64,000 nt of DNA from Echinarachnius parma (taxonomy: Eukaryota; Echinodermata; Echinoidea; Clypeasteroida; Echinarachniidae). The notes below the pieces were generated by a model. That model was not told the DNA's origin. It saw only the letters and a list, made by a program, of their open reading frames with translations, and searched no databases. A program made the translations under genes and the position numbers. Numbering within the stretch: position 1 is the stretch's first letter; each line of letters begins with the position of its first letter. The DNA lies in contig JBAMJV010009687.1 of NCBI GenBank assembly GCA_037951105.1, forward strand, positions 1 through 64,000. The letters run 5' to 3'. Below are positions 2,729 through 53,667 of this stretch, piece by piece.

Positions 2729-3428
2729 TTGGGCAAGAGTTTAGAGACCCATGTGGCATGTGTTGTGTGAATCCCACAAGAAGAGTGGCTCAGGTGTCAT
2801 GACTCATATTGAACCATCCTCCAACAGGATAATTCTTTCAAACCTAGAATCATGAATTGTAAATTATATAAGGTACATCCAAGTTCGGAAGAAAATAGCT
2901 TGCTCTAGACTATGTGTGTTGCTTGACCAGTTTGGAAAATTAGGAAATGAGCATTCAATTTGTAATTGTAATGAAGAACATTTTAAGAAAAATTGGTGAA
3001 TGACATTAAACAAACCTTGAGAAACAAATTGCTGTCAGTCCTTACAGTATGTTGTAAAAATACAAAAATGTTCTTAAAATACATTGGATGGAAGCTGGGA
3101 AAGTGGGTTTTTTAGAGCCGTGAATGGAAAAGAAAGAGAAGCAGTTCCTACATGTAATTACAAGTTACTCAGAAATTCAATTTGCAAGCAGCAAGAGAGA
3201 GCAACAATTGTTGAATTAGATACCCTAATCCTTGATCACCGAGTATCGCTAGAGTGGCAGTTGTGTGCTTCTATGATAATGTCGGGTGAGAGTGAGAAGG
3301 GCGTTAAGTTGATTTTTCGCTAAATTGAGTTATGCATACCATCTTGTAGGTCCGAACCTCCTCGACATAATGCAACATTTTCAGATAAAAATTATGTCTA
3401 ATTTTGGGAACATTCAACAAAATATTAA

Positions 3429-3983
3429 AGGGAAAGTTGAGTTTTGGTAGAGAGGGCGCTAGACTACTTAATTGGTTTGAGAGGTAATGAAAAACTGAGT
3501 GTAAAATTTGAAAGAGCATAATATTTAAACAATAAAATCATCTTTGTTTGATCAAAATCGGTTCAGAAACGGCTGAAATATCCATAAATATAACAATTTG
3601 TAATAAACCCGGGGCCCCGGGTTTATTAGAGAATTTTGAACCAGCCGTTAAAAATTCAAAAAAATGCTTCCTCTTTTCAAAAAGTTACAAAATAGGTATT
3701 TAAATAGTTGTTGGTTATTTCTCTATCTAATCACTATTTCAACAAAGCATCACATGCACAATATTTTATTCAAAATGGTTGAAACCGATGAGTGTTTAGA
3801 GAGCGCCCTCTTACGTTTTAACGGCTCTTTTTGAATGATAACATGATCTTTACTACGTCATTTGTAATTTTGTGTTCCTTTCTAGTTATAACTATTAGTT
3901 TGTAATGTAATGATGCAGGTTTTGGTTACTAAAATTCAGTTTCACTAAAACTGTACTCTCCTTACTAGAACTCAACTATCCCT
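3429..3983 (-). mobile_element. MITE family A, copy 2 (inside family D)
   Basis: Reverse-orientation copy of 547-1094, flanked by TTAA at 3425-3428 and 3984-3987. It keeps the same perfect 28-bp central palindrome (3601-3628). It is very similar to copy 1, so both are fairly young. Confidence 0.75.
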
Positions 3984-4000
3984 TTAAACATAGCTACATT

Positions 4001-4249
4001 GTATCGGAAATAATATCGCTAGTGATATTCGTTTGTCTCGCAATGTATGGTCAAACTAGGAATCTAAAGGATCATACAAATATGGAACGCTTCACGATTT
4101 TGAGTGTCATCCCGGGATTAGCATGGCCTCTGCGCAAGGATGACTCGCAAAATCGAGAAGCGTTCCATATTTTTATGATCTTTTAGATTCCTAGTTTGAC
4201 CATACATTGCGAGACAAACGAATATCACTAGCGATATTATTTCCGATAC
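4001..4249. repeat. U6 snRNA-derived foldback element
   Basis: A near-perfect inverted repeat: arms 4001-4112 and 4138-4249 around a 25-nt spacer. Each arm carries the 3' end of U6 snRNA followed by about 75 bp of shared tail. The left arm reads GGATGACACTCAAAATCG on the minus strand. The right arm, joined to the spacer, gives 59 nt (4116-4174) matching the U6 3' half with four mismatches from the vertebrate U6 I recall, including GATTAGCATGGCC, GCGCAAGGATGAC, GAAGCGTTCCATA and the T5 terminator. An 11-bp direct repeat TAGCTACATTG (3991-4001 and 4293-4303) flanks the region and looks like a target-site duplication. Confidence 0.85.
4116..4174 (+). pseudogene. U6 snRNA 3'-half fragment
   Basis: Colinear with U6 from GATTAGCATGG (just after the ACAGAGA region) to the terminal oligo-U. 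It includes the sequence that forms the U6 internal stem-loop. The 5' stem, the ACAGAGA box and any upstream PSE/TATA promoter are missing, so this is not a working U6 gene. Confidence 0.85.
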
Positions 4250-4379
4250 TATATCCGCAATGGATTATATATTTACTATTATAATGTACATGTAGCTACA
4301 TTGGTTTCTACATAGCTTTCAAACTTGAAACATGTCTATCTCTGAAGTGCAAACAGTTACTTACTTCTCTTTTCCACTG

Positions 4380-18985: not shown

Positions 18986-18989
18986 TTAA

Positions 18990-19524
18990 AGGGGTAGTTT
19001 AGTTTTGGTAGAGAGGGCGCTGCACATCACAATTTTTTTGTGAGGTAATGAAAAACTGAGTGTCGAATTTGAGAGAACATGCAATTTTAATGGCAGAATA
19101 AACTTTATTTGGTCAAAATCGACCCAGAAACGGCTGAAATATCAATAAATATATCTGATATTATAATTATTTGGGGCCCAAATAATTAGATGATTTAAAA
19201 AAAAAAATTAAAAATGCTTGCACTTTTTCAAAAAATTTCAAAAGCGTTTTTTAAATAGTTGTTGATGATCTCTCTATTTAATCATTATATCAATAAAACA
19301 TCACATGCATAATTTTGTATGAAAAATGGTTAAAACCAATGCCTTTTCAAAAAGCGCCCTCTTGTGTTTTAATGGCTCTTTTTGAATGATAACGGGCTTT
19401 TTACTTAGTCGTTTGTAATTTTGTATACCATTCGAGCACGGTGGAGTTATAACTATTAGTTTATAATGTTACTGTGCAGGTTTTGGCTACTAAAGTTCAG
19501 CCTTTCCAAAACTAAACTACCCCT
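18990..19524 (-). mobile_element. MITE family A, copy 3 (older)
   Basis: Flanked by TTAA (18986-18989 and 19525-19528) and diverged from copies 1 and 2. Its central palindrome (19164-19188) has 12-bp perfect arms around one G, with a different sequence from the other copies. It sits inside a unit of the 220-bp tandem repeat. Confidence 0.75.
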
Positions 19525-19579
19525 TTAATGTACATTTTTCTGTGCATAGATAATTGTAGAGAAATCTCTCAATGCTTAA

Positions 19580-20098
19580 AGGGATAGTTGAGTTTTGGTA
19601 GAGAGGGCGTGCTACACAAAATAACTTTTTTGTGAGATAATGAAAAACTGAGTGTCAAATTTGAAAGAGCATACAATTTTAATGGCAGAATAAACTTTAT
19701 TTGATCAAAATCGGTTCAGAAACGGCTGAAATATCCATAAACATACCATTTGTAATAAATGTGGGGCCCCACAAGTATTCGATAATTTTGAACCAGCCGT
19801 TAAACTTAAAATTCGTTTTAAAATGCTTCCTCTTTTCAAAAATGTTCAAAGAGGTTTTTAGATAGTTGTTGATTATCTCTCTATCTAATCACTATTTCAA
19901 CAAAACATCACATGCACAATATTTTATTTTAAATGGTTTAAACAAATTCGTTTTTTGAAAGCGCCCTCTTTCATTTAAATAGCTTTTGAGCATGGTGGAG
20001 TTATAACTATTAGTTTGTAATGTAATGGGGCAGGTTTTGGTTACTAAAATTCAGTTTGACTACAACTGTACTCTCTCTACCAGAACTCAACTATTCCT
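19580..20098 (-). mobile_element. MITE family A, copy 4
   Basis: Flanked by TTAA (19576-19579 and 20099-20102). The neighbouring tandem unit reads caatgatttaagtatgcata where this one reads caatgcTTAA[element]TTAAatacatac, so the sister unit shows the approximate empty site and supports a 4-bp TTAA duplication. Its central palindrome (19754-19779) is again distinct: tgtggggccccaca. Confidence 0.75.
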
Positions 20099-20104
20099 TT
20101 AAAT

Positions 20105-34788: not shown

Positions 34789-36085
34789 TAAGGCTGAGTC
34801 GGTTCGGTCGATCACACCGGTTACCGACCGTTTCAATCGGGACCCGGTTTGGTATATCGGGAAACAGTGCCCCGAAAAAAAAAATAAATAAATAAAATGT
34901 TAAAAAAGAAATTAAGATTATCACAATAATGTAGCGGAATTCAAATAAAAACGGGGCAATTGATATCATTTACTTTAAAGAGTGGTTATTTTCGAGAAAT
35001 TCTTGGTTCATTACTTCATTTGACAGTCAGAAATTGAACAGGAAGCGCAAAATTGCTAGTCATTTGAACGATATTGTCGGCGGATGTGCACACAATGTTA
35101 GTCCGATACTCCAGGGGAGTTGTCTGATGGATCTTTGTATGATCCAGCTGATGAGCCAGTGCATTCAAAAAGTGGCTCAAAATACGTTTTTTGGTCATTT
35201 GCACCATTTAAAAATGTTTTGATATTCTACTTACATGATTTCATGGCGTTTGACAGCCGAACAGAAACAAAAATGAGCCCCAAAACAATGAAAACAACTA
35301 CTCAAAACATCGATAAAAAACGACTACATCGCTCCCATTATATTCGCTCGTATACCCTGTGTGCAAGTTACGGGACTATGTTCCAGTCCGCCCTCTATCG
35401 GCAAGATCCATCCGCCAGGAATTGGGGAAGTCCCCGGCGGATGGATCTTGCGCAAGAAAAGAGACCCCGTAACTTGCACACAGGGTATACGAGCGAATTG
35501 GAGTGATGTAGTCGTTTTTTATCGATGTTTTGAGTAGTTGTTTTCATTGTTTCGGGGCTCTTTTTTTTCTGTTCGGCTGTCAAACGCCATTCGAAATCAT
35601 GTAAGTAGAATATCAAAATGGTGTTGATTGCGAAAAGGCTAATTTATAGCCACTTTTTAAGGGCATGCAGTGGCTCACTGTCACAAGCGATCGTACATGT
35701 GATGTTTCCCCCGCCCGACTAGCGGGCTAAGTTTCTGTGAACCGTGTTGCGATGGGCAATGGTGAACAAACGATCGATTTCTAGGTCCAATTTACTTCGA
35801 AAAAAAGTACTTTTCATTCGAAACTGAGTTAATTCTGGATAGTCTGTAACTATTTTCCCGTAAAGATTGATATGTAAATCCATAAAAGCCTCGGTATTTA
35901 TAATGTTATTTGCATATAAAAAGAGCAATATAAGCCCCATACAGTGCATTTTTGCCGATGCGTGCACGATTGCGTGATTTTACCGGTCGAGTTTCGAGGG
36001 TAAAAATTTATCGGGATACCGGTTCCCGACCGGTAAAAGTTTATCGGGACCCGGTTCCGACAATTACCGACATGACTCAGCCTTA
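34789..36085. mobile_element. hAT-like non-autonomous element, copy 2
   Basis: Flanked by a perfect 8-bp duplication CTTTGAAC (34781-34788 and 36086-36093). Termini TAAGGCTGAGTC and GACTCAGCCTTA are perfect 12-bp inverted repeats, matching hAT habits. Subterminal regions are packed with ACCGG/CCGGT words (ttaccgaccg, cgggacccggtt, ataccggttcccgaccggta). The interior is a long foldback: arms about 35221-35425 and 35433-35623. About 900 bp of interior is shared with 26604-27920. No transposase ORF. Confidence 0.85.
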
Positions 36086-39644: not shown

Positions 39645-40030
39645 TTAAAAGGATACTAGTACATGTATAGTTCTGGTCAAACTGAATTTTAGTAACCAAA
39701 CCTGCACCATAACATTACAAACTAATAGTTATAACTCCACCATGTTCGAAAGGTTTACAAAATTATAAATGACTAGAAGTAAAAAGCCTGTTATAAATTT
39801 TAAAAAAGAGCCGTTAAAAATCAAGAGGGTGCTCTCTAAAATCGCAACAACTAAACAAATTGTGCAGTGATGTTTTTTTAAAATAATGATTGAATAGAGA
39901 GATCATCAACAACTATTAAAAAACCTCTTTGGTAATTTTTTACATAAAGTGTAAGCATTTTATATTTGTTTTCTTAAATCATCAAGTAAATGTTGGATCC
40001 AACATTTATTCCGATTGGATATATTTATTG
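39645..40030 (+). mobile_element. MITE family A, copy 5, partial
   Basis: Matches the left half of 547-1094 (tagttctggtcaaactgaat, acaaactaatagttataact, agagccgttaaaaatc) through a central palindrome at 39987-40008, then becomes unrecognisable. The palindrome here is gttggatccaac, unlike the GGGGCCCC cores of the other copies. Confidence 0.65.
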
Positions 40031-52686: not shown

Positions 52687-53667
52687 AACCGCTCAAAAAA
52701 AGTTCGGAAACTCAAATTTGATCGATCATATCTCTCGTATTTTTTAATAAGAATAGCATTCAAATAAAATATTCATGATCAAATATGATATCAACGGAAA
52801 GCCCAACAACTCTTCTGTATGAAAATGTGAAATTTATAATGATTTTTGTAAAGGGCGGCTGCAGGGAGATGAATGGGATGGAGCCTCAAAAGTGACCCAT
52901 TTTGAAACGCTCTGATTTCATTCATGCGTTTTCAATTGAATTCCTCTCATTCATGGCCAACTCATTCAAGTCGCATTACATCCTCTACACAATGGTATAC
53001 AGATACCGACACCAAATCAGAGCGTTTTGAAATGGGTCACTTTTGAGGCTCCCCCACATTCATCTCCCTGCAGCCGCCCTTTACAAAAATCATTATGAAT
53101 GTCACATGTTCATACAGAAGAGTTGTTGGGCTTTCCGTTGATATCAATTTAAATCATGAATATTTTATTTGAAATGCTAAAAAATCCTCCCAAAAGCTCG
53201 AAAAAAATGCAACGCTCTGATTTTTTGTCAACTCCATATCTTTTTGTCTGAGTTCACACTCGACCCATCTCCATATTCCGGTTCGCTGCACACACCCATT
53301 TGCATAATCCTTACGATTAATATGCCATCGTAATGAAGAGATAATTTCCATTAAAATGGTATCCAATTCAACAATTTTTATGAATGGAAAGGGTGGCAGT
53401 ATTCAATAGAATGTTAACCTTTAGAAAACTGATCAACACAATCATGCACTCGTAAATTGAATGCCTTGGGGCCATTTTGCGAGATTTCACTTCCTGCCTC
53501 CCCCTATTCTCTGGGCTACTGCCATCGCCCCAATTGCATAATCACTACACATAATGCACCGTTTGTATAATGAGGCTTTATTGTGAACCGATTTCGAGTA
53601 TTCTTATTAAAAAATACGAGAGATATGATCGATGAAACTTGAGTTTCCGAACTTTTTTTGAGGGGTT
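52687..53667. mobile_element. TA-flanked foldback transposon, non-autonomous
   Basis: Flanked by TA (52685-52686 and 53668-53669). Long inverted ends: AACCGCTCAAAAAAAGTTCG then GAAACTCAA, mirrored by TTGAGTTTCCGAAC then TTTTTTTGAGGGGTT, extending over ttaataagaat with one gap. A second inverted pair lies inside (about 52757-52925 and 53007-53178), including ggaaagcccaacaactcttc and ggcggctgcagggagatgaa. TA duplication and length fit Tc1/mariner derivatives. No transposase ORF. A short SINE-tail-like piece (ataataataatgttgtattt) precedes it. Confidence 0.8.

Follow-up and report, generated by a model that had tools for sequence, protein, structure and literature searches.

Why should the 3' half of a U6 snRNA stand at the centre of a palindrome, and is such a structure a working RNA gene or the remnant of an insertion? 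The question is raised by a stretch of 64,000 nt of Echinarachnius parma DNA (contig JBAMJV010009687.1), referred to here as the window, for which an initial annotation had described a near-perfect palindrome centred on U6. The inverted repeat is real: its arms lie at 3998-4112 and 4138-4252, are 115 nt long each and 95% complementary, and are separated by a 25-nt spacer. The left arm is nested inside the right arm at both ends. The predicted RNA fold of the palindrome had a z-score of -26.9, and none of 200 shuffled sequences was as stable. We resolved the locus into the following features, where 'unit' denotes the repeat unit of the retroelement family described below.

3991..4001, left target-site duplication TAGCTACATTG, which abuts the element end and is identical in contigs C5339 (L040) and C5282 (L041)
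4002..4075, minus strand, element part of the left arm, unit positions 74 to 1, inverted
4076..4112, minus strand, U6 3' end of the left arm, 37 nt including the T-run, matched by the Rfam U6 model on the minus strand
4113..4115, head-to-head junction CGG, outside both arms; C5339 has one additional G
4116..4174, plus strand, 5'-truncated U6 of the right arm and spacer, from Rfam model position 47 (GATTAGC) to the 3' TTTTT
4175..4248, plus strand, element part of the right arm, unit positions 1-74, with U6 joined exactly at position 1 (ATGATC)
4249..4282, plus strand, 34-nt extension, unit positions 75-108, at the right end only
4283..4292, 10 extra nt between the element end and the right duplication, likewise present in C5339 and C5282
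4293..4303, right target-site duplication TAGCTACATTG

That both arms carry the U6 3' end was confirmed with Rfam. The U6 model matched the right arm at 4115-4174 on the plus strand with 56.4 bits, above the gathering threshold, and the left arm at 4076-4113 on the minus strand with 21.4 bits, below the gathering score of 44; the left-arm match came from a search of the small region and did not appear when the whole window was searched. The U6 portion of the left arm starts at model position 69 and comprises the last 37 nt of U6. The 59 nt of U6 reported for the right arm and spacer stood, whereas the reported four mismatches became three when the sequence was compared with a canonical invertebrate-type U6 stretch; the four correspond to human U6. 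The U6 gene at locus L064 of this genome agrees with this stretch except in the last base of the T-run, and the U6-half copies at both ends of locus L063 agree with it throughout.

Elsewhere in the window, ungapped comparison with the U6 stretch gave at best 30 matching positions of 59. The U6 sequence of the window is 5'-truncated and no full-length body is present, so the locus does not qualify as a U6 snRNA gene. Full-length U6 copies do occur in the genome, with the top matches among the 48 scored of 110,561 candidates spanning the whole model. The L064 gene has a canonical body and a 3' flank unlike the tail of the palindrome; the suggestion that the tail might be the 3' flank of a normal U6 gene was therefore not borne out at the one gene flank examined. 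Short U6 matches also occur in runs with a recurrent spacing of ~403 bp (C11222:86249-97766 and C2510:126770-142675). At L063 (C11222:88740-89240), two identical U6 3' halves lie 403 bp apart with one diverged copy between them; they start at GATTAGC, which is the 5' boundary of the right arm in the window, and their 3' flank (GCCTTTTTTTT...) differs from that in the window. The recurrent GATTAGC boundary perhaps reflects a reverse-transcription stop on modified U6.

The palindrome is also found on contig C5282 (99.8% identity over 501 bp) and on contig C5339 (97.4% over 422 bp). The three palindromes have common flanks and a common duplication and are one insertion carried on three contigs. 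The arms change independently among these copies. The T-run of the left arm is interrupted in the window copy alone. The arms of C5339 show 4 differences across the outer 112 positions, and its U6 letters are canonical at the two sites of a T/A double change in the window, which indicates that the arms were closer at birth than they are now. This double change (window 4145 and 4156, in the right-arm U6, shared with C5282) is a paired one, converting CACG/CGTG of the U6 internal stem-loop to CTCG/CGAG; either chance or hairpin-templated correction could have produced it. Non-tandem window positions at which an 11-mer is shared at the spacing of the insertion's duplication numbered 79 of 49,501.

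Adjoining the palindrome is a TTAA-bounded MITE-like element of 563 bp (3425-3987), 97% identical to an inverted copy ~2.3 kb off (543-1098) and with relatives at 18986-19513, 19576-20103 and 39665-39961. We considered this MITE as part of the palindrome and rejected it, as the corresponding site of C5339 lacks it.

The tail shared by both arms, which had been called unique, proved to be nothing of the kind. The palindrome tail (4175-4282) corresponds to positions 1-108 of a tandemly repeated unit of ~461 bp, as seen at L014 (numbering reference L014:1501-1961), and is the conserved end of a tandem-repeat retroelement: the first 35 nt of the unit have 1,084 copies within three mismatches in the 1.2-Gb assembly. 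A U6-specific repeat or SINE was rejected on this basis, with the U6 joint present in 2 insertions against 1,084 copies of those 35 nt. The unit has a GC content of 0.477 and no ORF was seen in it by eye, with stop codons near position 1. A 28-nt pattern from the tail had no matches in IMG/VR or bacterial genomes, as expected for an animal sequence.

We characterized the family in 20 regions of 8-10 kb (L030-L049). These were drawn from a list of 97 matches for which 40 of 735 candidates had been scored, and they do not sample the 1,084 tails at random. As the tail itself had served as the query, its conservation among these regions is biased and was not taken as evidence. Merging of duplicated contigs or segments (L031/L032, L033/L034 and L040/L041) left 17 insertions. 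The ~461-bp unit was in tandem at several loci, and head-to-head inverted arms were present in 15 of the 20 regions, or 12 of the 17 insertions after merging; insertions with arms in one orientation only were also present, and the number of tandem units varied. The head-to-head break points varied as well (for example, unit positions 370/384, 413/325, 13/290, 429/79, 41/207 and 52/276). In the two-armed insertions one outer end was short, at unit positions 72-79 (...TATTTCCGATA; read from the printed letters for L035), and the other long, at 104-109 (...TTTACTATT). Target-site duplications of 9-13 bp were identified for 11 of the 17 insertions, abutting both element ends in 10 of those 11 (the left end of L035 again read from printed letters), with the 10-nt gap at the right of the window group as the exception; the remaining 6 of 17 had no duplication of at least 9 bp. 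Among five further insertions tested, four had duplications of 12-14 bp (L051, L055, L057 and a mini-insertion in L043) and one (L053/L054) had none.

The ends of the window insertion, at unit position 74 on the left and 108 on the right, match the family layout, and by its sequence the palindrome is a strongly indicated member of this insertion family. It is most likely retro-derived, as initially proposed. The expectation of a multi-copy family with the same inverted layout was also correct, in 12 of 17 insertions, but the tie between that layout and U6 was not: the inverted layout is a property of the tandem-repeat element family and not of U6. Two smaller relatives deserve mention. At L043 (5607-5661), a minimal insertion is confined to approximately unit positions 21-75, and ATGTTACCTTTC is a candidate for its 12-bp duplication; a single-arm insertion on C7434/C8842 (L053, L054) starts at unit position 1; the ~50 nt upstream of the latter might represent another RNA partner.

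Unit position 1 is where U6 is attached. In the native family, ...GCAGCGGCAYACGAAACGTC leads into position 1 (ATGATC); in the window, the U6 3' end ...GTTCCATATTTTT does so in both arms, and U6 takes the place of everything upstream. With a 30-nt pattern spanning the joint and up to three mismatches allowed, a search of the whole genome identified TTTTT/ATGATC in seven arms at four places: the window, C5282, C5339 and C1302. Flanks and duplications resolve these four places into two independent insertions. The C1302 insertion is flanked by a 13-bp duplication of its own, and only one of its arms carries U6, ~20-23 nt in length. At the gathering threshold, Rfam detected U6 in 2 of 17 loci of 3 kb (L002 and L003) and missed a short piece at L008.

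Among exact tails, the base before position 1 was non-native at 10 places, comprising the 4 U6 copies, 2 point mutants and 4 other junctions in which an arm begins at position 1. The last group represents 3 events, of which L055 is uncertain by a base. At position 3, which served as a control, there were 5 such places, 3 of them junctions. Arm starts thus amounted to 5 events at position 1 against 3 at position 3, an enrichment so weak that we set it aside. Because starts at position 3 are nearly as many, truncated arms alone are no proof of an RNA 5' end at position 1; the case for such an end therefore rests mainly on the two U6 insertions and on the motif described below, and not on arm statistics. 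U6 is a passenger at the element joint in two independent insertions, which could derive from one chimeric source.

The letters around the joint, AUCAU-UUGACAAA-GURU-UGCAGCGGC-AYAC-GAAACGUC/AUGAU, resemble in layout the minimal type I hammerheads of Penelope-like elements (PLEs), which have no helix III (PMC7761336, PMC11167929). The unit end ...CGAAACGTC before position 1 resembles the cut site of these minimal hammerheads, no helix III nucleotides are present, and most native copies read GAAACGTC/ATGATC, in agreement with the GAAAC-GUC feature of PLE hammerheads. The motif alignment (A1) used 25 of 34 distinct native copies, trimmed, with nine places lacking the native upstream sequence skipped. 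Of 22 distinct rows, 21 retain the closing G-C pair of stem II, and one stem II pair shows compensatory change (G-C in 14 rows, A-U in 6, G-U in 1 and unpaired in 1). Changes on both sides occurred in only this one stem pair, and 470 of 500 shuffles did as well by that measure. Pair 3 of stem I is broken in 4 of the 22 rows.

The core is UUGACAAA and not CUGANGA, departing from it at C3 and G8, and because of this deviation we do not claim the motif as a member of the hammerhead class. There was no Rfam hammerhead match in 17 loci at gathering or in one unit at E-values up to 10, and the exact canonical pattern CTGATGAG..CGAAACGTCATG was absent from the whole assembly; a canonical hammerhead was rejected on these two results. 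The folding energy of the motif was ordinary (z of -0.3 and -0.6, no better than shuffles), and its minimum free energy structure pairs UGAC with GUCA, which would compete with the hammerhead fold. A relaxed hammerhead descriptor gave 34 matches in L030-L059, 0 in the window and 0 in 60 random 64-kb sequences, and is to be read as a description and not a test because it was written after the motif had been seen. A U3-A8 pair could stand in place of C3-G8, with one extra A left over. The double change C3G/G8C partly restores activity (PMC11167929), and the motif may work like a hammerhead despite its deviating core.

There are good sequence grounds for assigning the family to the PLEs, because it combines tandem units, two ends ~30 nt apart, target-site duplications and a hammerhead-like motif. 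The ~461-bp units correspond to the tandem or partial-tandem (pLTR) arrangement of PLEs, the alternative ends at 72-79 and 104-109 to the optional tail of 30-40 bp, and the duplications of 9-13 bp (12-14 bp in the further insertions) to their variable-length duplications. Autonomous PLEs encode a telomerase-like reverse transcriptase and a GIY-YIG endonuclease. GIY-YIG ORF pieces were identified in the genome by Pfam, and none was linked to the palindrome tail; no autonomous element with this tail was found, and among the 17 GIY-YIG matches the three examined on their 3' side showed no convincing similarity to the unit there. The ORF pieces in L043 belong to an insertion separate from the family unit. 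They include a reverse transcriptase piece that had no Pfam match and that, by eye, we take to be Penelope-like.

We consider it probable that the palindrome stems from a single insertion event by a non-autonomous retroelement, tandemly repeated and of PLE or retrozyme type, with the 3' half of U6 already fused to its RNA. The U6 end was probably picked up at the element's own RNA cut site. A U6 joint at position 1 needs an element RNA with its 5' end there, and such an end would arise if the minimal hammerhead-like ribozyme cut the element RNA between ...GAAACGUC and AUGAUC, leaving a 5'-OH at position 1. U6 would then be joined to this end, either by RtcB-type ligation or by a jump of the reverse transcriptase between RNA ends. 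U6 ends in oligo-U with a 2',3'-cyclic phosphate, and this phosphate and the 5'-OH of a hammerhead product are the two ends that RtcB joins, which would permit ligation of U6 to the element RNA. Both cutting by a ribozyme and RNA ligation at the joint are inferred steps.

Insertion would follow from a staggered cut by a Penelope-type reverse transcriptase-endonuclease, with cDNA primed from both broken ends at RNA positions ~107 and ~75. The two cDNAs, 5'-truncated inside U6 at Rfam model positions 47 and 69, would be joined head to head to give the palindrome. Joined midway in this manner, they would leave arms in opposite orientation with unequal ends, flanked by a duplication as long as the stagger. 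The presence of U6 in both arms favours a preformed chimera. Later point changes and the insertion of the neighbouring TTAA-type MITE would complete the locus. In Anolis, a PLE protein cuts and extends both target strands and reverse transcription starts inside the RNA; the optional 'tail' of 30-40 bp in genomic PLE copies is the stretch between two start sites of reverse transcription (PMC11167929), and the 34-nt extension in the window has the size and place of that tail. A fuller version of the scheme, which we hold only tentatively and at somewhat less than even chances, is that a variant minimal hammerhead with a U3-A8 pair cuts GUC/AUG, the host tRNA ligase joins the cyclic phosphate of U6 to the 5'-OH, and the PLE machinery copies the U6-headed RNA from both sides of a staggered break, leaving a fossil record of cleavage and ligation in vivo.

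The same element and insertion mechanism would also be compatible with a different origin of the joint, in which the reverse transcriptase, having reached the 5' end of the element RNA, jumps end to end onto the 3' end of U6 as its next template. Such jumping has been proposed for U6-LINE chimeras, and template switching to U6 has been reported for L1, L2 and RTE elements (PMC4476161). The exact junction fits this route, which likewise depends on an element RNA beginning at position 1. Two jumps in one event would, however, be required to place U6 at the joint in both arms of the window, and the joint was found in just two insertions (the window group and C1302); we regard jumping as possible and on balance rather unlikely. 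The palindrome might instead have formed at the DNA level, through a single U6::element cDNA that folded back and copied itself or a replication template switch that inverted an existing copy. The nesting of the left arm within the right at both ends is what such folding back would produce, as are arms that were nearly identical at birth, judging from the few differences in C5339, and the L031 arms, which are identical over 152 nt. It is difficult to reconcile with one family arm having its own preferred outer end (72-79) abutting the duplication, with head-to-head break points that differ among insertions, and with L033, in which the arms differ by 5% and each has closer relatives elsewhere; we consider it an unlikely origin.

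Long inverted arms, target-site duplications and many copies would equally suit a cut-and-paste DNA transposon or MITE that had captured U6, with the arms as its terminal inverted repeats, and other foldback repeats are present in the window (e.g. 52759-53173). The unequal ends (the one-sided 34-nt extension), variable break points, variable tandem unit number, single-orientation insertions and variable duplication length make this very improbable, and a MITE with U6 cargo was rejected because unequal ends and variable breakpoints depart from symmetrical terminal inverted repeats. A selected hairpin RNA gene based on U6, whether a long hairpin or a source of siRNA, is more improbable still. 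The predicted fold is very stable and the Rfam microRNA model MIR8565 scores 77 bits; this is below its gathering threshold of 136, and we took it as a generic hairpin score and rejected the match. Against such a gene, no U6-type promoter was seen by eye in the 76 nt upstream of the truncated U6, a run of five T residues within the stem (4170-4174) would terminate Pol III transcription, and in the three copies each arm has changed on its own. Long-read data are known to contain artefactual inverted chimeras, and the palindrome could on that account be a foldback artefact of the assembly or library. That reading is negligible in our estimation: the arms are non-identical, target-site duplications flank the insertion, and the palindrome is present on three contigs, one of them ~97% identical and without the neighbouring MITE.

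The palindrome is a rare hybrid and not a working RNA gene. With U6 5'-truncated, no promoter seen, a T5 run in the stem and arms that change independently, nothing supports a function for it, and the transcribed U6 hairpin envisaged in the initial annotation finds no backing here. The interest of the locus lies in a joint at one base of a tandem retroelement, beside a hammerhead-like motif, in two independent insertions. Should the cut be real, the joint would provide genomic evidence for activity of PLE-type ribozymes in vivo and for host RNA ligation acting on their products. The activity and role of hammerheads in vivo have been called 'still a mystery' (PMC7761336), and no RNA reads were found to begin or end at the presumptive PLE cut site (PMC11167929). 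If the variant-hammerhead reading is true, the U6 joints at position 1 would locate the cut with single-base precision, and PLE hammerheads, so far mysterious, would gain a role in vivo. The inverted pairs, two end classes and ~12-bp duplications fit the extension of both strands reported for the PLE enzyme, and the family could serve as a genomic test bed for it.

Other features of the window include a 280-bp unit in two copies of 98.2% identity (1982-2261 and 2384-2662), which contains a tRNA-Gly (TCC) gene and has TA repeats on some sides. The sequence TACATGTA occurs 50 times in the 64 kb, against ~2 expected from base composition. Further foldback repeats lie at 52759-53173 (160-nt arms, 93%) and 35243-35590 (nested arms, 94-100%).

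Several known systems share parts of this arrangement, and U6-LINE chimeras, PLE insertions and retrozymes are all established kinds; for the first of these, Moldovan et al. 2019 is reportedly a source. A U6-PLE chimera was not reported in the titles and abstract openings of the literature searched, nor did we meet there a U6 fusion to a tandem element of PLE type that lies at a putative ribozyme cut and occurs in both inverted arms. The Poseidon PLE of Anolis carolinensis has tandem and partial-tandem copies, an optional tail and extension of both target strands in common with the present family (PMC11167929); by comparison with Poseidon, the unit described here has no ORF, a non-canonical ribozyme core and U6 attached. 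The metazoan non-LTR retrozymes likewise consist of short tandem repeats, of 150-450 bp as against ~461 here, with target-site duplications of more than 4 bp and a GC content below 50% (PMC7229834, PMC7761336), and RtcB circularizes self-cleaved retrozyme RNA in vitro (PMC7229834). Unlike them, the present family has no canonical type I hammerhead, and inverted twin arms and fusion to U6 are unmentioned in the passages of those two papers that were consulted.

The palindrome, in which the U6 3' end is fused to a retroelement in an insertion flanked by target-site duplications, conforms to a U6 chimeric retropseudogene. Fusions of U6 are known with L1, L2, RTE and related LINEs or SINEs, including 5'-truncated U6 on short L2 ends in platypus (PMC4476161), and ligation of U6 to LINE-1 RNA assists retrotransposition according to a review (PMC13247085). 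U6/LINE chimeric pseudogenes therefore resemble the palindrome in the fusion of the U6 3' end to retroelement RNA, in the duplications that flank the insertion and, with stringent LINEs such as L2, in the 5' truncation of U6 (PMC4476161, PMC13174262). What distinguishes the palindrome from them, for joints searched at position 1, is a PLE-like tandem partner, the placement of U6 at a putative ribozyme cut, and the presence of U6 in both inverted arms.
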